Source: Lepisosteus oculatus (lineage: Eukaryota; Chordata; Actinopteri; Semionotiformes; Lepisosteidae). Taken from it: a stretch of 64,000 bases of DNA. A program made the translations under genes and the position numbers. The stretch lies in NCBI RefSeq assembly GCF_040954835.1, contig NC_090699.1:14811817-14875816 (forward strand), written 5' to 3'. The notes under the pieces were generated by a model. It saw only the letters and a program-made list of their open reading frames with translations, was not told the DNA's origin and ran no database searches. Positions 7,659 to 64,000 of the stretch are shown in pieces; the stretch's first letter is position 1; the number at the start of each line of letters is the position of its first letter.

Positions 7659-7663
7659 GTGTG

Positions 7664-9217: not shown

Positions 9218-9281
9218 ATTTCTTCCAAGTGGCACGTCTGAGACTGGAGAATGAAGATAAAAAACCTGTGTTTTCGAGTCG
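9218..9281 (+). CDS. Candidate 64-bp coding exon (unproven)
   Basis: A strong acceptor (TGTGTGTTTTTTTCAG, AG at 9,216-9,217) and a good donor (GTATGT at 9,282) bound 64 bp that are open in one frame only. It enters in phase 1 and leaves in phase 2, reading FFQVARLRLENEDKKPVFSS. I do not recognise the peptide. The phase-2 exit (bases CG) is compatible with the mucin exon at 12,399, which supplies a single T to finish the codon (CGT, Arg). It is equally compatible with the 31-bp candidate at 10,525. The frame stays open past the donor, so the donor is not forced by a stop. A chance pair of splice signals cannot be ruled out. Confidence 0.28.
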
Positions 9282-10524: not shown

Positions 10525-10555
10525 CTTGGGCCTGCTGGCTGATCACACTGCCAGT
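10525..10555 (+). CDS. Candidate 31-bp micro-exon (unproven)
   Basis: The best-looking splice pair in the left third of the window: a long pyrimidine tract (CTTTCTTTCTTTCTCCAG, AG at 10,523-10,524) and a consensus donor (CAGT then GTAAGT at 10,556). Two frames are open. Entered in phase 2 (from the 9,281 donor) it reads LGLLADHTAS and exits in phase 0. Entered in phase 1 it reads WACWLITLP and exits in phase 2, which would join the mucin exon in frame as Val. The second reading is hydrophobic like part of a signal peptide, but no upstream start exon was found. The two readings are mutually exclusive, and 31 bp is short. Confidence 0.28.
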
Positions 10556-10599
10556 GTAAGTCTTCTGTTTCATTGCTAAGATGAATTATATGTATTATA

Positions 10600-10718: not shown

Positions 10719-10720
10719 TA

Positions 10721-11450: not shown

Positions 11451-11585
11451 TATATATTGATATTATATACTGATAGGACATTGCACTGTTATATCATATA
11501 TAGTTACATATATACAGTTCTATATACAGTATATACCGTGATATATATTGATATTATATCCTGATAGTACATTGTACTGCTCATG
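11451..11585. repeat. AT-rich minisatellite, right part
   Basis: About one and a half units of roughly 91 bp. TATATATTGATATTATATAC starts one unit at 11,451 and a close copy starts the next at 11,542. The TATAGTTACATATATACAGT segment is shared with the left part at 10,600-10,718. Confidence 0.65.
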
Positions 11586-11599
11586 CACTTCAATTCCTA

Positions 11600-12398: not shown

Positions 12399-15300
12399 TA
12401 CAATGTCGGCAACGTCAGTGGTAAGTGAGGCTACAACCACAATTTCCCCAGTGTCGACGGATGTGAATGACTCAGTAACACTTACAACACATAATCTACC
12501 CTCCACAACGACAATGGGCCCAACTACGACAAGTGGCACGATTTCTAATGAACAAACCACAACACCAACCCAAACAACGCAAGCACCCACGACAACAACT
12601 GCAGCTGACCCTACCACAGCAATGGGTACAACAACAACACTCCCTACAACAACTATGAGCAGCCAAAGTACCACAACAACAGCTCCCCAAGACGTCACAA
12701 CAATGAATGTCCCAACTACAACCACAACGCTTCCGCAAATTACCACAACAGCAAATTCTCCATCCACAAGCAAAACGACAACAACTACAACATTAGCACA
12801 GACTACCACCACAACTGCCCCCACCACCACAACAACTCCTGAAACTGCTACACCTGCCCCAACTACCACAACTACTCCACCAAGCACAACAACAGCCCCA
12901 ACAACTACAACACCTGCCCCTACTACCACAACAACTGCCCCCACCACCACAACAACTCCTGAAACTACTACACCTGCCCCAACTACCACAACTACTCCAC
13001 CAAGCACAACAACAGCCCCAACAACTACAACACCTGCCCCAACTACCACAACAACTGCCCCCACCACCACAACAGCTCCTGAAACTACTACACCTGCCCC
13101 AACTACCACAACAACTGCCCCCACCACCACAACAACTCCTGAAACTACTACAACACCTGCCCCTACTACCACAACAACTGCCCCCACCACCACAACAACT
13201 CCTGAAACTACTACACCTGCCCCAACTACCACAACTACTCCACCAAGCACAACTACAGCCCCAACAACTACAACACCTGCCCCTACTACCACAACAACTG
13301 CCCCCACCACCACAACAACTCCTGAAACTACTACAACACCTGCCCCAACTACCACAACTACTCCACCAAGCACAACTCCAGCCCCAACAACTACAACAAC
13401 TGCCCCCACCACCACAACTCCCGAAACTACTACAACACCTGCCCCTACTACCACAACAACTGCCCCCACCACCACAACAACTCCTGAAACTACAACACCT
13501 GCCCCAACTACCACAACTACTCCACCAAGCACAACTACAGCCCAAACAACTACAACACCTGCCCCTACTACCACAACAACTGCCCCAACCACCACAACAA
13601 CTCCTGAAACTACTACACCTGCCCCAACTACCACCACTACTCCACAAAGCACAACAACAGCCCCAACAACCACAACACCTGCCCCTACTACCACAACAAC
13701 TGTCCCCACCACCACAACAACTCCTGAAACTACTACACCTCCCCCAACTACCACAACTACTCCACCAAGCACAACTACAGCCTCAACAACTACAACACCT
13801 GTCCCTACTACCACAACAACTGCCCCCGCAACAACAACTCCTGAAACTACTACACCTGCCCCAACTACCACCACTACTCCAACAAGCACAACTACAGCCC
13901 CAACAACTACAACACCTGCCCCTACTACCACAACAACTGCCCCCACCACCACAACAACTCCTGAAACTACTACACCTGCCCCAACTACCACAACTACTCC
14001 ACCAAGCACAACTACAGCCCCAAGAACCACAACACCGGCCCCTACTACCACAACAACTGCCCCCACCACCACAACAACTCCTGAAACTACTACACCTGCC
14101 CCAACTACCACAACTACTCCACCAAGCACAACAACAGCCCCAACAACTACAACACCTGCCCCTACTACCATAACAACTGCCCCCACCACCACAACAACTC
14201 CTGAAACTACTACACCTGCCCCAACTACCACAACTACTCCACCAAGCACAACTACAGCCCCAACAACTACAACACCTGCCCCTACTACCACAACAACTGC
14301 CCCCACCACCACAACAACTCCTGAAACTACTACACCTGCCCCAACTACCACAACTACTCCACCAAGCACAACAACAGCCCCAACAACTACAACGACTGCC
14401 CCCACCACCACAACTCCCGAAACTACAACACCTGCCCCAACTACCACCAGTACTCCACCAAGCACAACTACAGCCCCAACAGCTACAACACCTGCCCCTA
14501 CTACCACAACAACTGCCCCCACCACCACAAACACTCCTGAAACTACTACACCTGCCCCAAGTACCACAACTACTCCACCAAGCACAACTACAGCCCCAAC
14601 AACTACAACACCTGCCCCTACTACCACAACAACTGCCCCCACCACCACAACAACTCCTGAAACTACTACACCTGCCCCAAGTACCACAACTACTCCACCA
14701 AGCACAACTACAGCCCCAACAACTACAACACCTGCCCCTACTACCACAACAACTGCCCCCACCACCACAACAACTCCTGAAACTACTACACCTGCCCCAA
14801 CTACCACAACTACTCCACCAAGCACAACTACAGCCCCAACAACTACAACACCTGCCCTTACTACCACAACAACTGCCCCCACCACCACAACAACTCCTGA
14901 AACTACTACACCTGCCCCAACTACCACAACTACTCCACCAAGCACAACTACAGCCCCACCAACTACAACACCTGCCCCAACTACCACAACTACTCCACCA
15001 AGCACAACAACAGCCCCAACAACTACAACAGCTGCCCCCACCACCACAACTCCCGAAACTACTACAACACCTGCCCCAACTACCATCACTACTCCACCAA
15101 GCACAACAACAGCCCCAACAACCACAACACCTGCCACTACTACCACAACAACTGCCCCCACCACCACAACAACTCCTGAAACTACTACACCTGCCCCAAC
15201 TACCACAACTACTCCACCAAGCACAACTACAGCCCCAACAACCACAACACCTGCCACTACTACCACAACAACTGCCCCCACCACCACCACAACTCCTGAA

Positions 15301-18300
15301 ACTACTACACCTGCCCCAACTACCAGCACTACTCCACCAAGCACAACAACAGCCCCAACAACTACAACGACTGCCCCCACCACCACAACTCCCGAAACTA
15401 CTACAACACCTGCCCCTAGTACCACAACAACTGCCCCCACCACAACAACAACTCCTGAAACTACTACACCTGCCCCAACTACCACAACTACTCCACCAAG
15501 CACAACTACAGCCCCAACAACTACAACACCTGCCTCTACTACCACAACAACTGCCCCCACCACCACAACAACTCCTGAAACTACTACACCTGCCCCAACT
15601 ACCACAACTACTCCACCAAGCACAACTACAGCCCCAACAACCACAACACCTGCCACTACTACCACAACAACTGCCCCCACCACCACCACAACTCCTGAAA
15701 CTACAACACCTGCCCCTACTACCACAACAACTGCCCCCACCACCACAACAACTCCTGAAACTACTACACCTGCCCCAACTACCACAACTACTCCACCAAG
15801 CACAACTACAGCCCCAACAACTACAACACCTGCCCCTACTACCACAACAACTGCCCCCACCACCACAACAACTCCTGAAACTACTACACCTGCCCCAACT
15901 ACCACAACTACTCCACCAAGCACAACTACAGCCCAAACAACTACAACACCTGCCCCAACTACCACAACTACTCCACCAAGCACAACAACAGCCCCAACAA
16001 CTACAACAACTGCCCCCACCACCACAACTCCCGAAACTACTACAACACCTGCCCCAACTACCACCACTTCTCCACCAAGCACAACAACAGCCCCAACAAC
16101 TACAACACCTGCCCCTACTACCATAACAACTGCCCCCACCACCACAACAACTCCTGAAACTACTACAACAGCTGCCCCAACTACCACAACTACTCCACCA
16201 AGCACAACTACAGCCCCAACAACTACAACACCTGCCCCTACTACCACAACAACTGCCCCCACCACCACAACAACTCCTGAAACTACTACACCTGCCCCAA
16301 CTACCACCACTACTCCACCAAGCACAACTTCAGCCCCAACAACCACAACACCTGCCCCTACTACCACAACAACTGCCCCCACCACCACAACAACTCCTGA
16401 AACTACTACACCTGCCCCAACTACCACAACTACTCCACCAAGCACAACTTCAACCCCAACAACCACAACACCTGCCCCTACTACCACAACAACTGCCCCC
16501 ACCACCACAACAACTCCTGAAACTACTACACCTGCCCCAAGTACCACAACTACTCCACCAAGCACAACTACAGCCCCAACAACCACAACACCTGCCCCTA
16601 CTACCACAACAACTGCCCCCACCACCACAACAACTCCTGAAACTACTACACCTGCCCCAACTACCACAACTACTCCACCAAGCACAACTACAGCCCCAAC
16701 AACTACAACACCTGCCCCTACTACCACAACAACTGCCCCCACCTCCACAACAACTCCTGAAGCTACTACACCTGCCCCAACTACCACAACTACTCCACCA
16801 AGCACAACTACAGCCCCAACAACTACAACACCTGCCCCTACTACCACAACAACTGCCCCCACCACCACAACAACTCCTGAAACTACTACACCTGCCCCAA
16901 CTACCACAACTACTCCACCAAGCACAACAACAGCCCCAACAACTACAACAACTGCCCCCACCACCACAACTCCCGAAACTACTACAACACCTACCCCAAC
17001 TACCACCACTTCTTCACCAAGCACAACAACAGCCCCAACAACTACAACACCTGCCCCTACTACCATAACAACTGCCCCCACCACCACAACAACTCCTGAA
17101 ACTACTACAACACCTGCCCAAACTACCACCACTACTCCACCAAGCACAACTACAGCCCCAACAACTACAACACCTGCCCCTACTACCACAACAACTGCCC
17201 CCACCACCACAACAACCCCTGAAACTACTACACCTGCCCCAAGTACCACAACTACTCCACCAAGCACAACTACAGCCCCAAAAACTACAACACCTGCCCC
17301 TACTACCACAACAACTGCCCCCACCACCACAACAACTCCTGAAACTACTACACCTGCCCCAACTACCACAACTACTCCACCAAGCACAACTCCAGCCCCA
17401 ACAACTACAACACCTGCCCCTACTACCACAACAACTGCCCCCACCACCACAATAACTCCTGAAACTACTACACCTGCCCCAACTACCACAACTACTCCAC
17501 CAAGCACAACTACAGCCCCAACAACTACAACACCTGCCCCTACTACCACAACAACTGCCCCCACCACCACAACAACTCCTGAAACTACTACACCTGCCCC
17601 AACTACCACAACTACTCCACCAAGCACAACTACAGCCCCAACAACTACAACAACTGCCCCCACCACAACAACTGCCCCCACCACCACAACAACTCCTGAA
17701 ACTACTACACCTGCCCCAACTACCACAACTACTCCACCAAGCACAACTACAGCCCAAACAACTACAACACCTGCCCCTACTACCACAACAACTGTCCCCA
17801 CCACCACAACAACTCCTGAAACTACTACACCTGCCCCAAGTACCACAACTACTCCACCAAGCACAACAACAGCCCCAACAACTACAACTAGTACCCCCAC
17901 CACAACAACAACTCCTGAAACTACAACAACACCTTCCCCAACTACCACAACTACTCCACCAAGCACAACTACAGCCCCAACAACTACATCAGCTGCCCCT
18001 ACTACCACAACAACTGCCCCCACCACCACAACAACTCCTGAAACTACTACAACGCCTGCCCCAACTACCACAACAACTGCCCCCACCACCACAACAACTC
18101 CTGAAACTACAACAACACCTGCCCAAACTACCACCACTACTCCAGCAAGCACAACAACAGCCCCAACAACTACAACACCTGGCCCTACTACCACAACAAC
18201 TGCCCCCACCACCACAACAAGTCCTGAAACTACTACACCTGGCCTAACTACCACCACTACTCCACCAAGCACAACAACAGCCCCAACAACTACAACACCT

Positions 18301-21300
18301 GCCCCTACTACCACAACAACTGCCCCCACCACCACAACAACTCCTGAAACTACTACACCTGCCCCAACTACCACAACTACTCCACCAAGCACAACTACAG
18401 CCCCAACAACTACAACAACTGCCCCCACCACAACAACTGCCCCCACCACCACAACAACTCCTGAAACTACTACACCTGCCCCAACTACCACAACTACTCC
18501 ACCAAGCACAACTACAGCCCCACCAACTACAACACCTGCCCCAACTACCACAACTACTCCACCAAGCACAACAACAGCCCCAACAACTACAACAACTGCC
18601 CCCACCACCACAACTCCCGAAACTACTACAACACCTGCCCCAACTACCATCACTACTCCACCAAGCACAACAACAGCCCCAACAACCACAACACCTGCCC
18701 CTACTACCACAACAACTGCCCCCACCACCACAACAACTCCTGAAACTACTACACCTGCCCCAACTACCACAACTACTCCACCAAGCACAACTACAGCCCC
18801 AACAACTACAACACCTGCCCCTACTACCACAACAACTGCCCCCACCACCACAACAACTCCTGAAACTACTACACCTGCCCCAACTACCACAACTACTCCA
18901 CCAAGCACAACTACAGCCCCAACAACCACAACACCTGCCCCTACTACCACAACAACTGCCCCCACCACCACAACAACTCCTGAAACTTCTACACCTGCCT
19001 CAACTACCACAACTACTCCACCAAGCACAACTACAGCCCCAACAACTACAACACCTGCCCCTACTACCACAACAAGTACCCCCACCACCACAACAACTCC
19101 TGAAACTACTACACCTTCCTCAACTACCACAACTACTCCACCAAGCACAACTACAGCCCAAAAAACTACAACACCTTCCCCTACTACCACAACAACTGCC
19201 CCCACCACCACAACAACTCCTGAAACTACTACACCTGCCCCAAGTACCACAACTACTCCACCAAGCACAACTACAGCCCCAACAACCACAACACCTGCCC
19301 CTACTACCACAACAACTGCCCCCACCACCACAACAACTCCTGAAACTACTACACCTGCCCCAACTACCACAACTACTCCACCAAGCACAACTACAGCCCC
19401 AACAACTACAACACCTGCCCCTACTACCACAACAACTGCCCCCACCACCACAACAACTCCTGAAACTACTACACCTGCCCCAACTACCACAACTACTCCA
19501 CCAAGCACAACATCAGCCCCAACAACTACAACAACTGCCTCCACCACCACAACTCCCGAAACTACTACAACACCTGCCCCAACTACCACCACTACTCCAC
19601 CAAGCACAACAACAGCCCCAACAACTACAACACCTGCCCCTACTACCATAACAACTGCCCCCACCACCACAACAACTCCTGAAACTACTACAACACCTGC
19701 CCAAACTACCACCACTACTCCACCAAGCACAACTACAGCCCCAACAACTACAACACCTGCCCCTACTACCACAACAACTGCCCCAACCACCACAACAACT
19801 CCTGAAACTACTACACCTGCCCCAAGTACCACAACTACTCCACCAAGCACAACTACAGCCCCAACAACCACAACACCTGCCCCTACTACCACAACAACTG
19901 CCCCCACCACCACAACAATTCCTGAAACTACTACACCTGCCCCAATTACCACAACTACTCCACCAAGCACAACTACAGCCCCAACAACTACAACACCTGC
20001 CCCTACTACCACAACAACTGCCCCCATCACCACAACAACTCCTGAAACTACTACACCTGCCCCAAGTACCACAACTACTCCACCAAGCACAACTACAGCC
20101 CCAACAACTACAACACCTGCCCCTACTACCACAACAACTGCCCCCACCACCACAACAACTCCTGAAACTACTACACCTGCCCCAACTACCACAACTACTC
20201 CACCAAGCACAACTACAGCCCCAACAACTACAACACCTGCTCCTACTACCACAACAACTGCCCCCACCACCACAACAACTCCTGAAACTACTACACCTGC
20301 CTCAACTACCACAACTACTCCACCAAGCACAACTACAGCCCAAACAACTACAACACCTGCCCCTACTACCACAACAACTGTCCCCACCACCACAACAACT
20401 CCTGAAACTACTACACCTGCCCCAAGTACCACAACTACTCCACCAAGCACAACAACAGCCCCAACAACTACAACTAGTACCCCCACCACAACAACAACTC
20501 CTGAAACTACAACAACACCTTCCCCAACTACCACAACTACTCCACCAAGCACAACTACAGCCCCAACAACTACAACAGCTGCCCCTACTACCACAACAAC
20601 TGCCCCCACCACCACAACAACTTCTGAAACTACTACACCTGCCCCAAGTACCACAACTACTCCACCAAGCACAACTACAGCCCCAACAACTACAACACCT
20701 GCCCCTACTACCACAACAACTGCCCCCACCACCACAACAACTCCTGAAACTACTACACCTGCCCCAACTACCACAACTACTCCACCAAGCACAACTACAG
20801 CCCCAACAACCACAACACCTGCCCCTACTACCACAACAAGTACCCCCACCACCACAACAACTCCTGAAACTACTACACCTTCCTCAACTACCACAACTAC
20901 TCCACCAAGCACAACTACAGCCCCAACAACTACAACACCTTCCCCTACTACCACAACAACTGCCCCCACCACCACAACAACTCCTGAAACTACTACACCT
21001 GCCCCAAGTACCACAACTACTCCACCAAGCACAACTACAGCCCCAACAACCACAACACCTGCCCCTACTACCACAACAACTGCCCCCACCACCACAACAA
21101 CTCCTGAAACTACTACACCTGCCCCAACTACCACAACTACTCCACCAAGCACAACTACAGCCCCAACAACTACAACACCTGCCCCTACTACCACAACAAC
21201 TGCCCCCACCACCACAACAACTCCTGAAACTACTACACCTGCCCCAACTACCACAACTACTCCACCAAGCACAACTACAGCCCCAACAACTACAACACCT

Positions 21301-42300: not shown

Positions 42301-45300
42301 ACTGCCCCCACCACCACAACAACTCCTGAAACTACAACAACACCTGCCCAAACTACCACCACTACTCCACTAAGCACAACAACAGCACCAACAATCACAA
42401 CACCTGCCCCTACTACCACAACAACTGCCCCCACCACCACAACAAGTCCTGAAACTACTACACCTGCCCCAACTACCACAACTACTCCACCAAGCACAAC
42501 AACAGCCCCAACAACTACAACACCTGCCCCTACTACCACAACAACTGCCCCCACCACCACAACAACTCCTGAAACTACTACACCTGCCCCAACTACCACA
42601 ACTACTCCACCAAGCACAACTACAGCCCCAACAACTACAACACCTGCCCCTACTACCACAACAACTGCCCCCACCACCACAACAACTCCTGAAACTACTA
42701 CACCTGCCCCAACTACCACAACTACTCCACCAAGCACAACTACAGCCCCAACAACTACATCAGCTGCCCCTACTACCACAACAACTGCCCCCACCACCAC
42801 AACAACTCCTGAAACTACTACAACGCCTGCCCCAACTACCACAACAACTGCCCCCACCACCACAACAACTCCTGAAACTACTACACCTGCCCCAACTACC
42901 ACAACTACTCCACCAAGCACAACTACAGCCCCAACAACTACAACACCTGCCCCTACTACCACAACAACTGCCCCCACCACCACAACAACTCCTGAAACTA
43001 CTACACCTGCCCCAACTACCACAACTACTCCACCAAGCACAACAACAGCCCCAACAACTACAACACCTGCCCCTACTACCACAACATCTGCCCCCACCAC
43101 CACAACAACTCCTGAAACTACTACACCTGCCCCAACTACCACAACTACTCCACCAAGCACAACTACAGCCCCAACAACTACAACACCTGCCCCTACTACC
43201 ACAACAACTGCCCCCACCACCACAACAACTCCTGAAACTACTACACCTGCCCCAACTACCACAACTACTCCACCAAGCACAACTACAGCCCCAACAACTA
43301 CAACATCTGCCCCTACTACCACAACAACTGCCCCCACCACCACAACAACTCCTGAAACTACTACACCTGCCCCAACTACCACAACTACTCCACCAAGCAC
43401 AACTACAGCCCCAACAACTACAACACCTGCCCCTACTACCACAACAACTGCCCCCACCACCACAACAACTCCTGAAACTACTACACCTGCCCCAACTACC
43501 ACAACTACTCCACCAAGCACAACAACAGCCCCAACAACTACAACACCTGCCCCTACTACCACAACATCTGCCCCCACCACCACAACAACTCCTGAAACTA
43601 CTACACCTGCCCCAACTACCACAACTACTCCACCAAGCACAACTACAGCCCCAACAACTACAACACCTGCCCCTACTACCACAACAACTGCCCCCACCAC
43701 CACAACAACTCCTGAAACTACTACACCTGCCCCAACTACCACAACTACTCCACCAAGCACAACTACAGCCCCAACAACTACAACATCTGCCCCTACTACC
43801 ACAACAACTGCCCCCACCACCACAACAACTCCTGAAACTACTACACCTGCCCCAACTACCACAACTACTCCAACAAGCACAACTACAGCCCCAACAACTA
43901 CAACACCTGCCCCTACTACCACAACAACTGCCCCCACCACCACAACAACTCCTGAAACTACTACACCTGCCCCAACTACCACAACTACTCCACCAAGCAC
44001 AACTACAGCCCCAACAACTACAACACCTGCCCCTACTACCACAACAACTGCCCCCACCACCACAACAACTCCTGAAACTACTACACCTGCCCCAACTACC
44101 ACAACTACTCCACCAAGCACAACAACAGCCCCAACAACTACAACACCTGCCCCTACTACCACAACATCTGCCCCCACCACCACAACAACTCCTGAAACTA
44201 CTACACCTGCCCCAACTACCACAACTACTCCACCAAGCACAACTACAGCCCCAACAACAACAACACCTGCCCAAACTACCACCACTACTCCACCAAGCAC
44301 AACAACAGCACCAACAATCACTACACCTGCCCCTACTACCACAACAACTGCCCCCACCACCACAACAAGTCCTGAAACTACTACACCTGCCCCAACTACC
44401 ACAACTACTCCAACAAGCACAACTACAGTCCCAACAACTACAACACCTGCCCCAACAACTACAACAACTACCCCCACCACAACAACAACTCCTGAAACTA
44501 CTACACCTGCCCCGACTACCACAACTACTCCACCAAGCACAACAACAGTCCCAACAACTACAACACCTGCCCCTACTACCACAAGAAATGCCCCAACCAC
44601 CACAACAACTCCTGAAACTACTACACCTGCCCCAAGTACCACAACAACTGCCCCCACCACCACAACAACTCCTGAAACTACTACACCTGCCCCAACTACC
44701 ACAACTACTCCACCAAGCACAACTACAGCCCCAACAACTACAACACCTGCCCCTACTACCACAACAACTGCCCCCACCACCACAACAACTCCTGAAACTA
44801 CTACACCTGCCCCAACTACCACAACTACTCCAACAAGCACAACTACAGCCCCAACAACTACAACACCTGCCCCTACTACCACAACAACTGCCCCCACCAC
44901 CACAACAACTCCTGAAACTACTACACCTGCCCCAACTACCACAACTACTCCACCAAGCACAACTACAGCCCCAACAACTACAACACCTGCCCCTACTACC
45001 ACAACAACTGCCCCCACCACCACAACAACTCCTGAAACTACTACACCTGCCCCAACTACCACAACTACTCCACGAAGCACAACAACAGCCCCAACAACTA
45101 CAACACCTGCCCCTACTACCACAACATCTGCCCCCACCACCACAACAACTCCTGAAACTACTACACCTGCCCCAACTACCACAACTACTCCACCAAGCAC
45201 AACTACAGCTCCAACAACAACAACACCTGCCCAAACTACCACCACTACTCCACCAAGCACAACAACAGCACCAACAATCACTACACCTGCCCCTACTACC

Positions 45301-48300
45301 ACAACAACTGCCCCCACCACCACAACAAGTCCTGAAACTACTACACCTGCCCCAACTACCACAACTACTCCAACAAGCACAACTACAGTCCCAACAACTA
45401 CAACACCTGCCCCAACAACTACAACAACTACCCCCACCACAACAACAACTCCTGAAACTACTACACCTGCCCCGACTACCACAACTACTCCACCAAGCAC
45501 AACAACAGTCCCAACAACTACAACACCTGCCCCTACTACCACAAGAAATGCCCCAACCACCACAACAACTCCTGAAACTACTACACCTGCCCCAAGTACC
45601 ACAACAACTGCCCCCACCACCACAACAACTCCTGAAACTACTACACCTGCCCCAACTACCACAACTACTCCACCAAGCACAACTACAGCCCCAACAACTA
45701 CAACACCTGCCCCTACTACCACAACAACTGCCCCCACCACCACAACAACTCCTGAAACTACTACACCTGCCCCAACTACCACAACTACTCCAACAAGCAC
45801 AACTACAGCCCCAACAACTACAACACCTGCCCCTACTACCACAACAACTGCCCCCACCACCACAACAACTCCTGAAACTACTACACCTGCCCCAACTACC
45901 ACAACTACTCCACCAAGCACAACTACAGCCCCAACAACTACAACACCTGCCCCTACTACCACAACAACTGCCCCCACCACCACAACAACTCCTGAAACTA
46001 CTACACCTGCCCCAACTACCACAACTACTCCACCAAGCACAACTACAGCCCCAACAACTACAACACCTGCCCCTACTACCACAACAACTGCCCCCACCAC
46101 CACAACAACTCCTGAAACTACTACACCTGCCCCAACTACCACAACTACTCCACCGAGCACAACAACAGCCCCAACAACTACAACACCTGCCCCTACTACC
46201 ACAACAACTGCCCCCACCACCACAACAACTCCTGAAACTACTACACCTGCCCCAACTACCACAACTACTCCACCAAGCACAACTACAGCCCCAACAACTA
46301 CAACACCTGCCCCTACTACCACAACAACTGCCCCCACCACCACAACAACTCCTGAAACTACTACACCTGCCCCAACTACCACAACTACTCCACCAAGCAC
46401 AACTACAGCCCCAACAACTACAACACCTGCCCCTTCTACCACAATAACTGCCCCCACCACCACAACAACTCCTGAAACTACTACACCTGCCCCAACTACC
46501 ACAACTACTCCACCAAGTACAACTACAGCCCCAACAACTACAACACCTGCCCCTACTACCACAACAACTGCCCCCACCACCACAACAACTCCTGAAACTA
46601 CTACACCTGCCTCAACTACCACAACTACTCCACCAAGCACAACTACAGCCCCAACAACTACAACAGCTGCCCCTACTACCACAACAACTGCCCCCACCAC
46701 CACAACAACTTCTGAAACTACTACACCTGCCCCAACTACATCAACTACTCCACCAAGCACAACTCCAGCCCCAACAACTACAACAGCTGCCCCTACTACC
46801 ACAACAACTGCCCCCACCACCACAACAACTTCTGAAACTACTACACCTGCCCCAACTACCTCAACTACTCCACCAAGCACAACTCCAGCCCCAACAACTA
46901 CAACACCTGCCCCTACTACCACAACAACTGCCCCCACCACCACAACAACTCCTGAACCTACTACACCTGCCCCAACTACCACAACTACTCCATCAAGCAC
47001 AACAACAGCCCCAACAACTACAACAACTGCCCCCACCACCACAACTCCTGAAACAACTACAACACCTGCCCCTAGTACCACAACAACTGCCCCCACCACC
47101 ACAACAACTTCTGAAACTACTACACCTGCCCCAACTACCTCAACTACTCCACCAAGCACAACAACTGCCCCCACCACAACAACAACTCCAGAAACTACTA
47201 CACCTGCCCCAACTACCACAACTACTCCACCAAGCACAACTACAGCCCCAACAACTACAACACCTGCCCCTACTACCACAACAACTGCCCCAACCACCAC
47301 AACAACTCCTGAAACTACTACACCTGCCCCAACTACCACAACTACTCCACCAAGCACAACTACAGCCCCAACAACTACAACAACTGCCCCCACCACAACA
47401 ACAACTCCTGAAACTACTACACCTGCCCCAACTACCACCACTACTCCACCAAGCACAACAGCCCCAACACCTACAACACCTGCCCCTACTACCACAACAA
47501 CAGCCCCCACCACCACAACAACTCCTGAAACTACTACACCTGCCCCAACTACCACAACTACTCCACCAAGCACAACAACAGCCCCAACAACTACAACAGC
47601 TGCCGCTACTACCACAACAACTGCCCCCACCACCACAACAACTTCTGAAACTACTACACCTGCCCCAACTACATCAACTACTCCACCAAGCACAACTCCA
47701 GCCCCAACAACTACAACAGCTGCCCCTACTACCACAACAACTGCCCCCACCACCACAACAACTTCTGAAACTACTACACCTGCCCCAACTACCTCAACTA
47801 CTCCACCAAGCACAACTCCAGCCCCAACAACTACAACACCTGCCCCTACTACCACAACAACTGCCCCCACCACCACAACAACTCCTGAACCTACTACACC
47901 TGCCCCAACTACCACAACTACTCCATCAAGCACAACAACAGCCCCAACAACTACAACAACTGCCCCCACCACCACAACTCCTGAAACAACTACAACACCT
48001 GCCCCTAGTACCACAACAACTGCCCCCACCACCACAACAACTTCTGAAACTACTACACCTGCCCCAACTACCTCAACTACTCCACCAAGCACAACAACTG
48101 CCCCCACCACAACAACAACTCCAGAAACTACTACACCTGCCCCAACTACCACAACTACTCCACCAAGCACAACTACAGCCCCAACAACTACAACACCTGC
48201 CCCTACTACCACAACAACTGCCCCAACCACCACAACAACTCCTGAAACTACTACACCTGCCCCAACTACCACAACTACTCCACCAAGCACAACTACAGCC

Positions 48301-51300
48301 CCAACAACTACAACAACTGCCCCCACCACAACAACAACTCCTGAAACTACTACACCTGCCCCAACTACCACCACTACTCCACCAAGCACAACAGCCCCAA
48401 CACCTACAACACCTGCCCCTACTACCACAACAACAGCCCCCACCACCACAACAACTCCTGAAACTACTACACCTGCCCCAACTACCACAACTACTCCACC
48501 AAGCACAACAACAGCCCCAACAACTACCACACCTGCCCCTACTACCACAACAACTGTCCCCACCACAACAACTCCTGAAACTACTACAACGCCTGCCCCA
48601 ACTACCACCACTACTCCAGCAAGCACAACAACAGCCCCAACAACTACAACACCTGGCCCTACTACCACAACAACTGCCCCCACCACAACAACTCCTGAAA
48701 CTACTACAACGCCTGCCCCAGCTACCACCACTACTCCAGCAAGCACAACAACACCCCCACCAACTACAACACCTGGCCCTACTACCACAACAACTGGCCC
48801 CACCACCACAACAACTCCTGAAACTACTACAACAGCTGCCCCTACTACCACAACAACTGCCCCCACCACCACAACAACTCCTGAAACTACTACACCTGCC
48901 CCAACTACCACAACTACTCCACCAAGCACAACTACAGCCCCAACAACTACAACACCTGCCCCTACTACCACAACAACTGCCCCCACCACCACAACAACTC
49001 CTGAAACTACTACACTTGCCCCAACTACCACAACTACTCCACCAAGCACAACTACAGCCCCAACAACTACAACATCTGCCCCTACTACCACAACAACTGC
49101 CCCCACCACCACAACAACTCCTGAAACTACTACACCTGCCCCAACTACCACAACTACTCCAACAAGCACAACTACAGCCCCAACAACTACAACACCTGCC
49201 CCTACTACCACAACAACTGCCCCCACCACCACAACAACTCCTGAAACTACTACACCTGCCCCAACTACCACAACTACTCCACCAAGCACAACTACAGCCC
49301 CAACAACTACAACACCTGCCCCTACTACCACAACAACTGCCCCCACCACCACAACAACTCCTGAAACTACTACACCTGCCCCAATTACCACAACTACTCC
49401 ACCAAGCACAACTACAGCCCCAACAACTACAACAACTGCCCCCACCACAACAACAACTCCAGAAACTACTACACCTGCCCCAACTACCACAACTACTCCA
49501 ACAAGCACAACTACAGCCCCAACAACTACAACACCTGCCCCTACTACCACAACAACTGCCCCCACCACCACAACAACTCCTGAAACTACTACACCTGCCC
49601 CAACTACCACAACTACTCCACCAAGCACAACTACAGCCCCAACAACTACAACACCTGCCCCTACTACCACAACAACTGCCCCCACCACCACAACAACTCC
49701 TGAAACTACTACACCTGCCCCAACTACCACAACTACTTCACCAAGTACAACTACAGCCCCAACAATTACAACACCTGCCCCTACTACCACAACAACTGCC
49801 CCCACCACCACAACAACTCCTGAAACTACTACACCTGCCCCAACTACCACCACTACTCCACCAAGCACAACAACAGCCCCAACAACTACAACAGCTGCCC
49901 CTACTACCACAACAACTGCCCCCACCACCACAACAACTTCTGAAACTACTACACCTGCCCCAACTACCTCAACTACTCCACCAAGCACAACTCCAGCCCC
50001 AACAACTACAACACCTGCCCCTACTACCACAACAACTGCCCCCACCACCACAACAACTCCTGAACCTACTACACCTGCCCCAACTACCACAACTACTCCA
50101 CCAAGCACAACAACAGCCCCAACAACTACAACAACTGCCCCCACCACCACAACTCCTGAAACAACTACAACACCTGCCCCTAGTACCACAACAACTGCCC
50201 CCACCACAACAACAACTCCAGAAACTACTACACCTGCCCCAACTACCACAACTACTCCACCAAGCACAACTACAGCCCCAACAACTACAACACCTGCCCC
50301 TACTACCACAACAACTGCCCCAACCACCACAACAACTCCTGAAACTACTACACCTGCCCCAACTACCACAACTACTCCACCAAGCACAACTACAGCCCCA
50401 ACAACTACAACAACTGCCCCCACCACAACAACAACTCCTGAAACTACTACACCTGCCCCAACTACCACCACTACTCCACCAAGCACAACAGCCCCAACAC
50501 CTACAACACCTGCCCCTACTACCACAACAACTGCCCCCACCACCACAACAACTCCTGAAACTACTACACCTGCCCCAACTACCACAACTACTCCACCAAG
50601 CACAACAACAGCCCCAACAACTACCACACCTGCCCCTACTACCACAACAACTGTCCCCACCACAACAACTCCTGAAACTACTACAACGCCTGCCCCAACT
50701 ACCACCACTACTCCAGCAAGCACAACAACAGCCCCAACAACTACAACACCTGGCCCTACTACCACAACAACTGCCCCCACCACAACAACTCCTGAAACTA
50801 CTACAACGCCTGCCCCAGCTACCACCACTACTCCAGCAAGCACAACAACACCCCCACCAACTACAACACCTGCCCCTACTACCACAACAACTGCCCCCAC
50901 CACCACAACAACTCCTGAAACTACTACACCTGCCCCAACTACCACAACTACTCCACCAAGCACAACTACAGCCCCAACAACTACATCAGCTGCCCCTACT
51001 ACCACAACAACTGCCCCCACCACCACAACAACTCCTGAAACTACTACAACGCCTGCCCCAACTACCACAACAACTGCCCCCACCACCACAACAACTCCTG
51101 AAACTACTACACCTGCCCCAACTACCACAACTACTCCACCAAGCACAACTACAGCCCCAACAACTACAACACCTGCCCCTACTACCACAACAACTGCCCC
51201 CACCACCACAACAACTCCTGAAACTACTACACCTGCCCCAACTACCACAACTACTCCACCAAGCACAACAACAGCCCCAACAACTACAACACCTGCCCCT

Positions 51301-54300: not shown

Positions 54301-57300
54301 ACTACCACAACAACTGCCCCCACCACCACAACAACTCCTGAAACTACTACACCTGCCCCAACTACCACAACTACTCCACCGAGCACAACAACAGCCCCAA
54401 CAACTACAACACCTGCCCCTACTACCACAACAACTGCCCCCACCACCACAACAACTCCTGAAACTACTACACCTGCCCCAACTACCACAACTACTCCACC
54501 AAGCACAACTACAGCCCCAACAACTACAACACCTGCCCCTACTACCACAACAACTGCCCCCACCACCACAACAACTCCTGAAACTACTACACCTGCCCCA
54601 ACTACCACAACTACTCCACCAAGCACAACTACAGCCCCAACAACTACAACACCTGCCCCTTCTACCACAATAACTGCCCCCACCACCACAACAACTCCTG
54701 AAACTACTACACCTGCCCCAACTACCACAACTACTCCACCAAGTACAACTACAGCCCCAACAACTACAACACCTGCCCCTACTACCACAACAACTGCCCC
54801 CACCACCACAACAACTCCTGAAACTACTACACCTGCCTCAACTACCACAACTACTCCACCAAGCACAACTACAGCCCCAACAACTACAACAGCTGCCCCT
54901 ACTACCACAACAACTGCCCCCACCACCACAACAACTTCTGAAACTACTACACCTGCCCCAACTACATCAACTACTCCACCAAGCACAACTCCAGCCCCAA
55001 CAACTACAACAGCTGCCCCTACTACCACAACAACTGCCCCCACCACCACAACAACTTCTGAAACTACTACACCTGCCCCAACTACCTCAACTACTCCACC
55101 AAGCACAACTCCAGCCCCAACAACTACAACACCTGCCCCTACTACCACAACAACTGCCCCCACCACCACAACAACTCCTGAACCTACTACACCTGCCCCA
55201 ACTACCACAACTACTCCATCAAGCACAACAACAGCCCCAACAACTACAACAACTGCCCCCACCACCACAACTCCTGAAACAACTACAACACCTGCCCCTA
55301 GTACCACAACAACTGCCCCCACCACCACAACAACTTCTGAAACTACTACACCTGCCCCAACTACCTCAACTACTCCACCAAGCACAACAACTGCCCCCAC
55401 CACAACAACAACTCCAGAAACTACTACACCTGCCCCAACTACCACAACTACTCCACCAAGCACAACTACAGCCCCAACAACTACAACACCTGCCCCTACT
55501 ACCACAACAACTGCCCCAACCACCACAACAACTCCTGAAACTACTACACCTGCCCCAACTACCACAACTACTCCACCAAGCACAACTACAGCCCCAACAA
55601 CTACAACAACTGCCCCCACCACAACAACAACTCCTGAAACTACTACACCTGCCCCAACTACCACCACTACTCCACCAAGCACAACAGCCCCAACACCTAC
55701 AACACCTGCCCCTACTACCACAACAACAGCCCCCACCACCACAACAACTCCTGAAACTACTACACCTGCCCCAACTACCACAACTACTCCACCAAGCACA
55801 ACAACAGCCCCAACAACTACCACACCTGCCCCTACTACCACAACAACTGTCCCCACCACAACAACTCCTGAAACTACTACAACGCCTGCCCCAACTACCA
55901 CCACTACTCCAGCAAGCACAACAACAGCCCCAACAACTACAACACCTGGCCCTACTACCACAACAACTGCCCCCACCACAACAACTCCTGAAACTACTAC
56001 AACGCCTGCCCCAGCTACCACCACTACTCCAGCAAGCACAACAACACCCCCACCAACTACAACACCTGGCCCTACTACCACAACAACTGGCCCCACCACC
56101 ACAACAACTCCTGAAACTACTACAACAGCTGCCCCTACTACCACAACAACTGCCCCCACCACCACAACAACTCCTGAAACTACTACACCTGCCCCAACTA
56201 CCACAACTACTCCACCAAGCACAACTACAGCCCCAACAACTACAACACCTGCCCCTACTACCACAACAACTGCCCCCACCACCACAACAACTCCTGAAAC
56301 TACTACACCTGCCCCAACTACCACAACTACTCCACCAAGCACAACTACAGCCCCAACAACTACAACATCTGCCCCTACTACCACAACAACTGCCCCCACC
56401 ACCACAACAACTCCTGAAACTACTACACCTGCCCCAACTACCACAACTACTCCAACAAGCACAACTACAGCCCCAACAACTACAACACCTGCCCCTACTA
56501 CCACAACAACTGCCCCCACCACCACAACAACTCCTGAAACTACTACACCTGCCCCAACTACCACAACTACTCCACCAAGCACAACTACAGCCCCAACAAC
56601 TACAACACCTGCCCCTACTACCACAACAACTGCCCCCACCACCACAACAACTCCTGAAACTACTACACCTGCCCCAATTACCAGAACTACTCCACCAAGC
56701 ACAACTACAGCCCCAACAACTACAACAACTGCCCCCACCACAACAACAACTCCAGAAACTACTACACCTGCCCCAACTACCACAACTACTCCAACAAGCA
56801 CAACTACAGCCCCAACAACTACAACACCTGCCCCTACTACCACAACAACTGCCCCCACCACCACAACAACTCCTGAAACTACTACACCTGCCCCAACTAC
56901 CACAACTACTCCACCAAGCACAACTACAGCCCCAACAACTACAACACCTGCCCCTACTACCACAACAACTGCCCCCACCACCACAACAACTCCTGAAACT
57001 ACTACACCTGCCCCAACTACCACAACTACTTCACCAAGTACAACTACAGCCCCAACAATTACAACACCTGCCCCTACTACCACAACAACTGCCCCCACCA
57101 CCACAACAACTCCTGAAACTACTACACCTGCCCCAACTACCACCACTACTCCACCAAGCACAACAACAGCCCCAACAACTACAACAGCTGCCCCTACTAC
57201 CACAACAACTGCCCCCACCACCACAACAACTTCTGAAACTACTACACCTGCCCCAACTACCTCAACTACTCCACCAAGCACAACTCCAGCCCCAACAACT

Positions 57301-60300
57301 ACAACACCTGCCCCTACTACCACAACAACTGCCCCCACCACCACAACAACTCCTGAACCTACTACACCTGCCCCAACTACCACAACTACTCCACCAAGCA
57401 CAACAACAGCCCCAACAACTACAACAACTGCCCCCACCACCACAACTCCTGAAACAACTACAACACCTGCCCCTAGTACCACAACAACTGCCCCCACCAC
57501 AACAACAACTCCAGAAACTACTACACCTGCCCCAACTACCACAACTACTCCACCAAGCACAACTACAGCCCCAACAACTACAACACCTGCCCCTACTACC
57601 ACAACAACTGCCCCAACCACCACAACAACTCCTGAAACTACTACACCTGCCCCAACTACCACAACTACTCCACCAAGCACAACTACAGCCCCAACAACTA
57701 CAACAACTGCCCCCACCACAACAACAACTCCTGAAACTACTACACCTGCCCCAACTACCACCACTACTCCACCAAGCACAACAGCCCCAACACCTACAAC
57801 ACCTGCCCCTACTACCACAACAACTGCCCCCACCACCACAACAACTCCTGAAACTACTACACCTGCCCCAACTACCACAACTACTCCACCAAGCACAACA
57901 ACAGCCCCAACAACTACCACACCTGCCCCTACTACCACAACAACTGTCCCCACCACAACAACTCCTGAAACTACTACAACGCCTGCCCCAACTACCACCA
58001 CTACTCCAGCAAGCACAACAACAGCCCCAACAACTACAACACCTGGCCCTACTACCACAACAACTGCCCCCACCACAACAACTCCTGAAACTACTACAAC
58101 GCCTGCCCCAGCTACCACCACTACTCCAGCAAGCACAACAACACCCCCACCAACTACAACACCTGGCCCTACTACCACAACAACTGGCCCCACCACCACA
58201 ACAACTCCTGAAACTACTACAACAGCTGCCCCAACTACCACAACAACTGCCCCCACCACCACAACAACTCCTGAAACTACTACACCTGCCCCAACTACCA
58301 CAACTACTCCACCAAGCACAACTACAGCCCCAACAACTACCACACCTGCCCCTACTACCACAACAACTGTCCCCACCACAACAACTCCTGAAACTACTAC
58401 AACGCCTGCCCCAACTACCACCACTACTCCAGCAAGCACAACAACAGCCCCAACAACTACAACACCTGGCCCTACTACCACAACAACTGCCCCCACCACA
58501 ACAACTCCTGAAACTACTACAACGCCTGCCCCAGCTACCACCACTACTCCAGCAAGCACAACAACACCCCCACCAACTACAACACCTGGCCCTACTACCA
58601 CAACAACTGGCCCCACCACCACAACAACTCCTGAAACTACTACAACAGCTGCCCCAACTACCACAACAACTGCCCCCACCACCACAACAACTCCTGAAAC
58701 TACTACACCTGCCCCAACTACCACAACTACTCCACCAAGCACAACTACAGCCCCAACAACTACAACACCTGCCCCTACTACCACAACAACTGCCCCCACC
58801 ACCACAACAACTCCTGAAACTACTACACCTGCCCCAACTACCACAACTACTCCACCAAGCACAACTACAGCCCCAACAACTACAACACCTGCCCCTACTA
58901 CCACAACAACTGCCCCCACCACCACAACAACTCCTGAAACTACTACACCTGCCCCAACTACCACAACTACTCCACCAAGCACAACTACAGCCCCAATAAC
59001 TACATCAGCTGCCCCTACTACCACAACAACTGCCCCCACCACCACAACAACTCCTGAAACTACTACAACGCCTGCCCCAACTACCACAACAACTGCCCCC
59101 ACCACCACAACAACTCCTGAAACTACTACACCTGCCCCAACTACCACAACTACTCCACCAAGCACAACTACAGCCCCAACAACTACAACACCTGCCCCTA
59201 CTACCACAACAACTGCCCCCACCACCACAACAACTCCTGAAACTACTACACCTGCCCCAACTACCACAACTACTTCACCAAGTACAACTACAGCCCCAAC
59301 AACTACAACACCTGCCCCTACTACCACAACAACTGCCCCCACCACCACAACAACTCCTGAAACTACTACACCTGCCCCAACTACCACCACTACTCCACCA
59401 AGCACAACAACAGCCCCAACAACTACAACAGCTGCCCCTACTACCACAACAACTGCCCCCACCACCACAACAACTTCTGAAACTACTACACCTGCCCCAA
59501 CTACCTCAACTACTCCACCAAGCACAACTCCAGCCCCAACAACTGCAACACCTGCCCCTACTACCACAACAACTGCCCCCACCACCACAACAACTCCTGA
59601 ACCTACTACACCTGCCCCAACTACCACAACTACTCCACCAAGCACAACAACAGCCCCAACAACTACAACAACTGCCCCCACCACCACAACTCCTGAAACA
59701 ACTACAACACCTGCCCCTAGTACCACAAGAATTGCCCCCACCACCACAACTACTTCTGAAACATCTACACCTGCCCCAACTACCTCAACTACTCCACCAA
59801 GCACAACAACTGCCCCCACCACAACAACAACTCCAGAAACTACTACACCTGCCCCAACTACCACAACTACTCCACCAAGCACAACTACAGCCCCAACAAC
59901 TACAACACCTGCCCCTACTACCACAACAACTGCCCCAACCACCACAACAACTCCTGAAACTACTACACCTGCCCCAACTACCACAACTACTCCACCAATC
60001 ACAACTACAGCCCCAACAACTACAACAACTGCCCCCACCACAACAACAACTCCTGAAACTACTACACCTGCCCCAACTACAACCACTACTCCACCAAGCA
60101 CAACAGCCCCAACACCTACAACACCTGCCCCTACTACCACAACAACTGCCCCCACCACCACAACAACTCCTGAAACTACTACACCTGCCCCAACTACCAC
60201 AACTACTCCACCAAGCACAACAACAGCCCCAACAACTACCACACCTGCCCCTACTACCACAACAACTGTCCCCACCACAACAACTCCTGAAACTACTACA

Positions 60301-63300
60301 ACGCCTGCCCCAACTACCACCACTACTCCAGCAAGCACAACAACAGCCCCAACAACTACAACACCTGGCCCTACTACCACAACAACTGCCCCCACCACAA
60401 CAACTCCTGAAACTACTACAACGCCTGCCCCAGCTACCACCACTACTCCAGCAAGCACAACAACACCCCCACCAACTACAACACCTGGCCCTACTACCAC
60501 AACAACTGGCCCCACCACCACAACAACTCCTGAAACTACTACAACAGCTGCCCCTACTACCACAACAACTGCCCCCACCACCACAACAACTCCTGAAACT
60601 ACTACACCTGCCCCAACTACCACAACTACTCCACCAAGCACAACTACAGCCCCAACAACTACAACACCTGCCCCTACTACCACAACAACTACCCCCAACA
60701 CCACAACTCTTGAAACTACTACAACGCCTGCCCCAACTACCACAACAACTGCCGCCACCACCACAACAACTCCTGAAACTACAACAACACCTGCCCCAAC
60801 TACCACCACTACTCCAGCAAGCACAACAACAGCCCCAACAACTACAACACCTGGCCCTACTACCACAACAACTGCCCCCACCACAACAACTCCTGAAACT
60901 ACTACAACACCTGCCCCAACTACCACCACTACTCCAGCAAGCACAACAACAGCCCCAACAACTACAACACCTGCCCCTACTACCACAACAACTGGCCCCA
61001 CCACCACAACAACTCCTGAAACTACTACAACAGCTGCCCCTACTACCACAACAACTGCCCCCACCACCACAACAACTCCTGAAACTACTACACCTGCCCT
61101 AACTACCACCACTACTCCACCAAGCACAACAACAGCCCCAACAACCACAACACCTGCCCCTACTACCACAACAACTGCCCCCACCACCACAACAACTCCT
61201 GAAACTACTACACCTGCCCCAACTACCACAACTACTCCACCAAGCACAACTACAGCCCCAACAACTACAACTCCTGCCCCTACTACCACAACAACTGCCC
61301 CCACCACCACAACAACTCCTGAAACTACTACACCTGCCCCAACTACCACCACTACTCCACCAAGCACAACAACAGCCCCAACAACTACAACACCTGCTGC
61401 TACTACCACAACAACTGCCCCCACCACCACAACAACTCCTGAAACTACTACACCTGCCCGAACTACCACAACTACTCCACCAAGCACAACTACAGCCCCA
61501 ACAACTACAACACCTGCCCCTACTACCACAACAACTGCCCCCACCACCACAACAACTCCTGAAACTACTACACCTGCCCCAACTACCACAACTACTCCAC
61601 CAAGCACAACTACAGCCCCAACAACTACAACACCTGGCCCTACTACCACAACAACTGCCCCCGCAACAACAACTCCTGAAACTTCTACAACGCCTGCCCC
61701 AACTACCACCACTACTCCATCAAGCACAACAACAGCCCCAACAACCACAACAGCTGCCCCAACTACCACAACAACTGCCCCCACCACCACAATAACTCCT
61801 GAAACTACTACACCTGCCCCAACTACCACAACTACTCCACCAAGCACAACTACAGCCCCAACAACTACAACACCTGCCCCTACTACCACAACAACTGCCC
61901 CCACCACCACAACAACTCCTGAAACTACTACACCTGCCCCAACTACCACAACTACTCCACCAAGCACAACTACAGCCTCAACAACTACAACAACTGCCCC
62001 CACCACAACAACAACTCCTGAAACTACTACACCTGCCCCAACTACCACCACTACTCCACCAAGCACAACAGCCCCAACACCTACAACACCTGCCCCTACT
62101 ACCACAACAACTGCCCCCACCACCACAACTCCTGAAACTACTACAACGCCTGCCCCAACTACCACAACAACTGCCCCCACCACCACAACAACTCCTGAAA
62201 CTACTACACCTGCCCCAACTACCACAACTACTCCACCAAGCACAACAACAGCCCCAACAACTACCACACCTGCCCCTACTACCACAACAACTGTCCCCAC
62301 CACAACAACTCCTGAAACTACTACAACGCCTGCCCCAACTACCACCACTACTCCAGCAAGCACAACAACAGCCCCAACAACTACAACACCTGGCCCTACT
62401 ACCACAACAACTGCCCCCACCACAACAACTCCTGAAACTACTACAACGCCTGCCCCAGCTACCACCACTACTCCAGCAAGCACAACAACACCCCCACCAA
62501 CTACAACACCTGGCCCTACTACCACAACAACTGGCCCCACCACCACAACAACTCCTGAAACTACTACAACAGCTGCCCCTACTACCACAACAACTGCCCC
62601 CACCACCACAACAACTCCTGAAACTACTACACCTGCCCCAACTACCACAACTACTCCACCAAGCACAACTACAGCCCCAACAACTACAACACCTGCCCCT
62701 ACTACCACAACAACTACCCCCAACACCACAACTCTTGAAACTACTACAACGCCTGCCCCAACTACCACAACAACTGCCCCCACCACCACAACAACTCCTG
62801 AAACTACAACAACACCTGCCCCAACTACCACCACTACTCCAGCAAGCACAACAACAGCCCCAACAACTACAACACCTGGCCCTACTACCACAACAACTGC
62901 CCCCACCACAACAACTCCTGAAACTACTACAACACCTGCCCCAACTACCACCACTACTCCAGCAAGCACAACAACAGCCCCAACAACTACAACACCTGCC
63001 CCTACTACCACAACAACTGGCCCCACCACCACAACAACTCCTGAAACTACTACAACAGCTGCCCCTACTACCACAACAACTGCCCCCACCACCACAACAA
63101 CTCCTGAAACTACTACACCTGCCCTAACTACCACCACTACTCCACCAAGCACAACAACAGCCCCAACAACCACAACACCTGCCCCTACTACCACAACAAC
63201 TGCCCCCACCACCACAACAACTCCTGAAACTACTACACCTGCCCCAACTACCACAACTACTCCACCAAGCACAACTTCAGCCCCAACAACTACAACTCCT

Positions 63301-64000
63301 GCCCCTACTACCACAACAACTGCCCCCACCACCACAACAACTCCTGAAACTACTACACCTGCCCCAACTACCACCACTACTCCACCAAGCACAACAACAG
63401 CCCCAACAACTACAACACCTGCTGCTACTACCACAACAACTGCCCCCACCACCACAACAACTCCTGAAACTACTACACCTGCCCGAACTACCACAACTAC
63501 TCCACCAAGCACAACTACAGCCCCAACAACTACAACACCTGCCCCTACTACCACAACAACTGCCCCCACCACCACAACAACTCCTGAAACTACTACACCT
63601 GCCCCAACTACCACAACTACTCCACCAAGCACAACTACAGCCCCAACAACTACAACACCTGGCCCTACTACCACAACAAATGCCCCCGCAACAACAACTC
63701 CTGAAACTTCTACAACGCCTGCCCCAACTACCACCACTACTCCATCAAGCACAACAACAGCCCCAACAACCACAACAGCTGCCCCAACTACCACAACAAC
63801 TGCCCCCACCACCACAATAACTCCTGAAACTACTACACCTGCCCCAACTACCACAACTACTCCACCAAGCACAACTACAGCCCCAACAACTACAACACCT
63901 GCCCCTACTACCACAACAACTGCCCCCACCACCACAACAACTCCTGAAACTACTACACCTGCCCCAACTACCACAACTACTCCACCAAGCACAACTACAG
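12399..64000 (+). CDS. Giant mucin PTS-domain exon (partial, runs off the window)
   Basis: Encodes the Pro/Thr/Ser domain of a secreted or membrane mucin, the part that carries dense O-glycans. The frame (codons starting at 12,400) is open for about 17,200 codons. The first 137 residues are non-repetitive, Thr/Ser-rich, with one N-glycosylation sequon (NDS). From 12,811 a 40-residue unit repeats: Thr runs of 2-5 separated by AP, PE, PAP, PPS, AP and PAP, with 25 Thr, 9 Pro, 4 Ala, 1 Glu and 1 Ser. I saw no Cys or aromatic residue in the repeats. ATG at 12,403 has a poor start context and no signal peptide follows, so this is an internal exon. No VWD, C8, TIL, CysD, SEA, EGF or cystine-knot domain is visible, so gel-forming and membrane types cannot be separated. 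Its 3' end is beyond the window. Confidence 0.85.
14938..20500 (+). repeat. Higher-order duplication with a 2,586-bp offset
   Basis: A rare marker, ACTAGTACCCCCACC followed by TTCCCCAACTACC, occurs at 17,887 and again at 20,473, an offset of 2,586 bp (862 codons). A pair of ACCATCACTACTCC variants near 15,080 and 18,645 belongs to the same area but with another spacing, so boundaries are blurred by further rearrangement. Confidence 0.5.
25960..36500 (+). repeat. Higher-order duplications of 2,745 and 5,592 bp
   Basis: Marker GCCCAAACTACC followed by CCACTAAGC occurs at 26,404, 29,149 and 34,741 (offsets 2,745 and 5,592). The CCACCAAATACAAC variant occurs at 30,652 and 36,244, again 5,592 apart, then at 38,065 (1,821 later). 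An earlier segment (ACATCAGCTGCC at 27,289/32,101 and 28,174/32,986) is offset by 4,812, so one copy holds 780 extra bases. All offsets are multiples of three. Confidence 0.7.
42756..50981 (+). repeat. 8.2-kb higher-order repeat, block 1
   Basis: Begins at TACATCAGCTGCCCC (42,756) and runs to the same landmark at 50,982. It contains two 480-bp tandem copies (from about 43,021), two 960-bp tandem copies (landmark at 44,221 and 45,181) and two 933-bp tandem copies (ACATCAACTACTCC at 46,738 and 47,671). Where comparable with block 2, only a handful of single-base differences are visible over several kilobases. Confidence 0.85.
50982..58274 (+). repeat. 8.2-kb higher-order repeat, block 2 (933 bp shorter)
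   Basis: Matches block 1 at an offset of 8,226 bp up to about 55,800 (for example 46,738 to 54,964; 47,461 to 55,687), then at 7,293 bp from there on (48,394 to 55,687; 49,381 to 56,674; 50,491 to 57,784). The 933-bp change equals one copy of the tandem pair in block 1. Right end approximate. Confidence 0.85.
58155..58680 (+). repeat. Local 420-bp tandem duplication
   Basis: The ACAACTGGCCCCACC variant (Thr-Gly-Pro in place of Thr-Ala-Pro) occurs at about 58,176 and 58,596 with matching flanks, giving a 420-bp step. It sits between block 2 and the third, shortened block. Confidence 0.6.
59001..60190 (+). repeat. Third, internally shortened copy of the 8.2-kb block
   Basis: Starts with the same TACATCAGCTGCCCC landmark at 59,001 (offset 8,019 from block 2). 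After about 260 bp the match jumps to the later part of block 2: TCACCAAGTACAAC at 59,275 corresponds to 57,031 (offset 2,244). The jump removes 5,775 bp, exactly 1,925 codons. Confidence 0.7.
60150..64000 (+). repeat. 2,025-bp tandem duplication running off the window
   Basis: Landmarks repeat at 2,025 bp: GCCCCAACAACTACCACACC at 60,226 and 62,251, ACCCCCAACACCAC at 60,691 and 62,716, and GGCCCTACTACC with CCCCCGCAACAAC at 61,636 and 63,661. The second copy is still matching at the window end, so at least a full second copy, and perhaps more, lies there. Confidence 0.8.

Follow-up and report, generated by a model that had tools for sequence, protein, structure and literature searches.

A candidate gene for a giant membrane-tethered mucin with a 68-kb open exon in Lepisosteus oculatus

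The genes MUC3A, MUC3B and MUC12 of the human 7q22 cluster possess, close to their 5′ end, a single enormous PTS exon with extreme repeat expansion, and small exons after it for the membrane-proximal domains, the transmembrane segment and the tail. The same layout is found at the locus described here. Mucins of the MUC3, MUC12, MUC13 and MUC17 type carry EGF domains. In MUC16 a long PTS region is followed by several membrane-proximal modules in tandem, then by a transmembrane segment and a short basic tail, all of which have counterparts in our gene model, and the gel-forming mucins MUC2, MUC5AC, MUC5B and MUC6 resemble the locus in their large central PTS exon. A large single-exon array is also known from porcine submaxillary mucin. 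According to PMC9578598, exon 2 of human MUC3B is a single PTS exon of 39,267 bp. For human MUC12 a preprint (PMC13345508) predicts a longest allele of 23,080 amino acids, which corresponds to 69,240 bases for the entire MUC12 coding sequence. In the sequence-only reading of our locus the MUC16 exon (21.7 kb) had been taken as the largest human coding exon; the MUC3B and MUC12 figures make this view outdated. The lateral-line mucin of PMC11765562 and the salmon mucins of PMC5728529 were considered as comparisons and set aside, being of a different type. Within the open-licence literature we found no larger exon beyond the human cases and no report on this gene.

Here we describe a locus of Lepisosteus oculatus that, judged from its sequence, very probably encodes a membrane-tethered mucin of very large size. 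The window, by which we mean the whole stretch of 64,000 nucleotides that was analysed, lies on contig C4 (14811817-14875816) of a 1.2-Gb genome in 813 contigs. Coordinates above 64,000 refer to an extension into the adjoining assembly sequence, 184 kb being joined in total. It had been claimed from the letters of the window that a single coding exon begins at a splice acceptor at 12399 and reaches the window edge without requiring an intron. The sequence supports this: the AG lies at 12397-12398, no stop interrupts the plus-strand frame between 12346 and the last base of the window, and the 17,200 codons from 12399 to the edge include no stop. The proposed plus-strand exon of at least 51.6 kb stands as well, but the exon is longer. 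Its frame stays open for another 16.7 kb beyond the window, up to a GTAAGT donor that starts at 80709 and contains the first in-frame stop (80710), so that the exon measures 68,310 bp and occupies 14824215-14892524 of C4. In the assembly sequence it holds 22,769 complete codons, no N and no Cys, and it is symmetric (68,310 = 3 x 22,770, phase 2 at either side). A separate genome search returned an open frame of 22,788 amino acids at the same place. The codons translate into 60.6% Thr, 20.9% Pro, 9.8% Ala, 3.9% Ser and 2.7% Glu, a long PTS tandem-repeat region as in mucins, and this region appears to be contained in one large exon. One uninterrupted 68-kb exon thus appears to encode about 22,770 amino acids of a candidate sugar-coated brush. 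The minus strand is open too, over 17,221 codons at 12333-63998 and, across the whole exon, over a longest stretch of 22,420 codons rich in Val, Gly and Ala. This antisense frame is due to the codon set of the giant exon, and a gene annotation on it would be wrong.

The first part of the exon is unique: a query of 12399-12800 had one match genome-wide. The array that follows (Table 1) has a period of 240 bp, or 2 x 120 bp, with the 40-residue consensus unit ETTTPAPTTTTTPPSTTTAPTTTTPAPTTTTTAPTTTTTP; in the window TRF reports 216.7 copies of 240 bp at 12779-63986. The final kilobase of the exon consists of a different PTS repeat, HLSSASPSAPSVIPTSPAAAPV....

Table 1. Positions of the main features of the locus; coordinates above 64,000 lie in the extension
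Feature	Coordinates	Strand	Basis and remarks
First coding exon	9218..9281	+	Sequence and phases; acceptor TTTTTTTCAG, donor GTATGT; encodes MKIKNLCFRV
Second coding exon, 31 bp	10525..10555	+	AG/GT borders; phase 1 in, phase 2 out
Giant PTS exon	12399..80708 (window part 12399..64000)	+	Open frame, AG and GT borders
Unique N-terminal part of giant exon, Thr/Ser-rich, non-repetitive	12399..12778	+	Translation
Strong alternative 5′ splice site GTG/GTAAGT (candidate), 22 bp into exon	12418..12426 (intron from 12421)	+	Donor score, with caveat
Tandem array	12779..64000, on to ~79,635 outside the window	+	TRF, repeat units
Transmembrane exon (predicted)	99017-99201 (extended coordinates)	+	Splice motifs, phase
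Tail exon (predicted)	from 99744 (extended coordinates)	+	Splice motifs, phase

A hand-built in-frame model of the gene comprises 49 exons and 24,464 amino acids, is closed by a stop codon and has a predicted chain mass of 2.4 MDa before sugars. Its start codon, ATG at 9251 in exon 9218-9281, is preceded by an in-frame TGA, and before position 9218 there must be a further, non-coding 5′ exon. The 31-bp exon completes the leader (...AWACWLITLPV), and 9218-9281 and 10525-10555 together join 12399 in phase, which yields MKIKNLCFRVAWACWLITLPVTMSATSVVSEA.... The leader, MKIKNLCFRVAWACWLITLPVTMSA, was read by eye as a candidate signal peptide; it is only moderately hydrophobic, with 1.45 in the best 19-residue hydropathy window, which counts against the model. 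On the 3′ side the giant exon is also joined in phase, by an exon that starts at 81241. Nine tandem membrane-proximal modules are built from exons a, b, c, e and f (module 9 without f), and the starts of copies 2 to 7 are spaced 1,653 bp. The downstream exons were hand-picked with splice motifs, homology between modules and phase as guide; two f exons need GC donors, and a model with two f exons missing or misplaced loses the frame. Hydropathy reaches 2.8 at residue 24,421, the sole cluster above 1.6 in the model, and the cytoplasmic tail has 31 residues and is basic and Cys-rich at its start. From residue 26 to the transmembrane helix there is no Cys. A single C-terminal transmembrane helix with a cytoplasmic tail, as expected of a membrane-tethered mucin, is present in the model.

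Between exons c and e a coding-looking segment, QSESNSVLLNFVYLDNNLLTTPENMN, is seen at 82095-82176 (extended coordinates) and at the equivalent place in modules 2-7. We excluded it from the model because it does not fit the frame and is absent from modules 8 and 9; it is possibly a dead or alternative exon. Directly before the tail exon the intron carries a minisatellite with a period of about 40 bp (99220-99740, extended coordinates). Upstream of the giant exon a repeat whose halves are inverted, GAAGGCTCCACGGCCGAAACG..., occurs twice (2221-2400 and 3680-3835), and 3′ ends of SINE-like type are seen near 3300, 8800 and 10100; we take these repeats to be typical of fish. Further downstream, again in extended coordinates, an open segment at 119312-119602 resembles by eye the PRY-SPRY (B30.2) domain found in genes of the TRIM or NLR type, and a recent tandem duplication spans about 136000-184000 (shift 26,053 bp, 258 seed matches). 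A search of 1-14000 against Rfam gave no match.

The SEA domain of membrane mucins was not recognised: Pfam gave no SEA match with the modules, and two PDB profile searches gave no SEA either (best E 0.22, unrelated, in one and nothing in the other). A whole-genome search with PF01390, a type of search that split exons limit, had one match on another contig and none at the locus. When the modules are aligned by hhalign with two human SEA sequences, the N-terminal half of SEA falls weakly into register (probability 4.6%, E 0.0088), and it is possible that the modules are a divergent SEA fold. Nothing was obtained by hhalign for exon a against SEA or for the two module parts against each other. 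The modules match no Pfam or PDB family convincingly, all hits being below cut-off and chance-like. The strongest, Band_7 (E 6.3e-05), was rejected; a query of two modules brought it to 23.5 bits where 23.6 is the cut-off, and with one module it was absent. In the first 321 residues Pfam found no family. EGF-like domains are lacking in the Cys-free stretch between residue 26 and the helix, and so are the VWD, CysD and cysteine-knot domains of gel-forming mucins in the ectodomain.

With the last module, helix and tail as query, the genome gave at least 43 matches at E up to 1. Helix and tail recur on the minus strand of contig C6 at three sites, 45.37, 45.44 and 45.50 Mb, each surrounded by matches to the modules. 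These at least three paralogues (45370000-45520000) have a nearly identical transmembrane helix and tail and PTS repeats of a different type. Over the 58 codons of helix and tail our gene and gene B differ by 14 synonymous and 4 nonsynonymous changes, a dN/dS of 0.07 from this single pair, and the position of the stop is common to both. Upstream of the paralogue module clusters lie open PTS stretches of 1,741 codons in A, at least 3,069 in B and at least 3,085 in C; from their order we infer that each belongs to the adjoining helix. Paralogue C has an ordinary base composition, and in 100 shuffles of it the longest ORF was 314 codons. As read from the sequence, a GT donor in phase 2 closes the PTS exon of our gene and of each of A, B and C.

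Could the open frame be the mere appearance of a minisatellite that is noncoding and has a period divisible by three? When the giant exon was shuffled 30 times with its dinucleotides preserved, the longest ORF was 364 codons, a null that ignores the repeat structure. However, the absence of stops alone is weak evidence, because the codon set is stop-resistant and only about 2.9 nonsense changes (sum over five length classes) are expected in 504 repeat units. Only 826 of the 22,769 codons (3.6%, 602 of them GAA) are one base from a stop, compared with 327 of 1,673 in the C-terminal exons. These 504 units were taken from 599; left out were 31 of the 535 units in the five length classes, which deviate by more than 15% from the consensus, and 64 units of other length classes. 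It also speaks for a noncoding repeat that the antisense frame is open and that nonsynonymous variants are common in the array. The dN/dS-like ratios range from 0.37 to 0.76 for all deviations from the consensus, from 0.86 to 1.35 for distinct variants and from 0.49 to 1.19 for nearest-neighbour pairs. Since for recent variants most unit classes have a ratio close to 1 or higher, the exact repeat sequence seems barely constrained. Such a pattern would fit an array whose composition and frame count for more than its sequence, and a near-neutral array would look alike; the weak constraint therefore counts against the coding claim. Conservation of the frame is stronger evidence than the mere lack of stops. 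In the giant exon each of the 58,383 pairs of neighbouring suffixes with 30 or more shared bases is spaced by a multiple of three. Over 300 bp the highest self-identity is 1.00 when the shift is a multiple of three and 0.357 at other shifts (60 to 19,999), so that by neither measure was a frame-shifted repeat copy found. Few frameshifts would be expected in the array even under neutrality, because seven module copies show one indel (2 bp) against 43 variable columns out of 750 in their introns; in their exons 17 of 482 columns vary, with no indel. Applied to the array, with at least 284 site-base variants in its unit classes (the classes overlap and the counts are not independent), this ratio from a small control would lead one to expect a few indels that break the frame, whereas the array shows none. 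The minisatellite in the pre-tail intron is a small control as well. Of its 10 spacings eight are 40, one is 82 and one 42, and a similar minisatellite in paralogue B has spacings of 168, 167, 164, 39, 42, 77, 39 and 75; steps are few, of 1-3 bp, and break the phase as expected of noncoding repeats. A noncoding array would further leave unexplained that one frame runs from the leader exons through the downstream exons to helix and tail, that these last two are under purifying selection, and that the PTS stretch of paralogue C is open far beyond its shuffles. We consider a noncoding minisatellite extremely improbable.

A coding locus might still deliver a much smaller product. If the array were mostly removed from the mature mRNA, through the donor at 12421 or by exon skipping, a short membrane protein would result and the array would be an intron or optional exon. 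The 12421 donor outscores the giant exon's own (9.7 against 9.2), and skipping of the symmetric exon would preserve the frame. Good donors in the giant exon are confined to 12421 and 12425, both within the first 30 bases; GT dinucleotides are scarce (196 in 68 kb), and the exon has two donors scoring 5 or more where codon-reshuffled versions have a mean of 0.6. We found no evidence in the giant exon for donor avoidance by codon choice, nor for avoidance of the poly(A) signals AATAAA and ATTAAA (0 observed, 0.0 expected). In-frame use of 12421 needs an acceptor after a NAG codon, because this donor ends at a codon boundary. Candidate acceptors exist at 13 in-frame NAG codons, of which the last PTS block (79,747-80,490) contains 10, and the strong donor leaves room for a shorter isoform. 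However, splicing from 12421 straight to 81241 breaks the frame, the paralogues share the layout of one long exon, and a frame conserved over 68 kb is unexpected for a usually intronic array. Removal of the array as the rule seems unlikely to us. The length of the array is a statement of the assembly, and the gene could be real with an array that is much shorter or different in the animal, the assembler having wrongly doubled blocks. Adjacent near-identical blocks are indeed present: 42,699-47,598 (4,900 bp) is duplicated at a shift of 8,226 with 99.92% identity, and 47,499-50,898 (3,400 bp) at a shift of 7,293 with 99.76%. Together they amount to about 8.2 kb of near-identical sequence, within the span of ordinary long reads. 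These blocks are not exact copies, being set apart by substitutions and an offset of 933 bp, the joined 184 kb contain no N, and with a longest exact repeat of 2,520 bp and a median match of 210 bp, reads of 10-20 kb should resolve the array. An inflated assembly is thus very unlikely as well, and a coding gene with its giant exon is the reading we carry forward.

Compared with described mucins, the giant exon is real and extreme, yet of an already known kind, with human MUC3B and MUC12 as precedents. As far as can be told from the preprint, it is about the same size as the largest human MUC12 exon. Unlike MUC3A, MUC3B and MUC12, our gene has an ectodomain without cysteine and hence without an EGF-type domain, nine tandem modules instead of one SEA domain, no recognised SEA and another repeat unit. 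MUC16 differs in that our modules lack a SEA match in Pfam or PDB sequence searches. Its VNTR is described as the most degenerate in the preprint (PMC13345508), whereas our array is almost homogeneous and Thr-rich. In contrast to the gel-forming mucins, the leader joins the PTS region directly, the ectodomain has no Cys and a transmembrane segment is present, which leaves no room for VWD, CysD or cysteine-knot domains. The gene would work like a membrane mucin, and we would file it neither as MUC16 nor as a member of the MUC3 cluster.

The product would enter the secretory pathway, and most of the approximately 14,700 Ser/Thr residues of the giant exon would be candidate O-glycosylation sites. 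Mucin brushes measure about 0.25-0.3 nm per residue. On the cell surface the chain might stand as a stiff, cysteine-free brush several micrometres long that could serve as a barrier, lubricant or spacer. The exon itself may have grown as 120-bp units and multi-kilobase blocks were duplicated and unequally exchanged. Its frame would have survived this growth because unit lengths are multiples of three, because codons that a single base change would turn into a stop are almost lacking, and because selection would remove frameshifts, which would lose the membrane anchor. A more far-reaching reading, which we offer as doubtful, is that of a lineage-specific membrane-mucin family of at least four genes with modules that are neither SEA nor in Pfam, one gene having the longest single coding exon so far seen outside humans, translated whole into a cysteine-free brush on the micrometre scale.

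If it is translated whole, a 68-kb exon and a chain of about 24,460 residues would probe the limits of splicing, translation and secretion in animal cells. The locus shows how a giant exon can stay open, with units divisible by three and few codons next to a stop. It suggests that giant exons go unseen until assemblies resolve long repeats, and that exons of this size might recur in separate mucin families, beyond the oddity of human MUC12.
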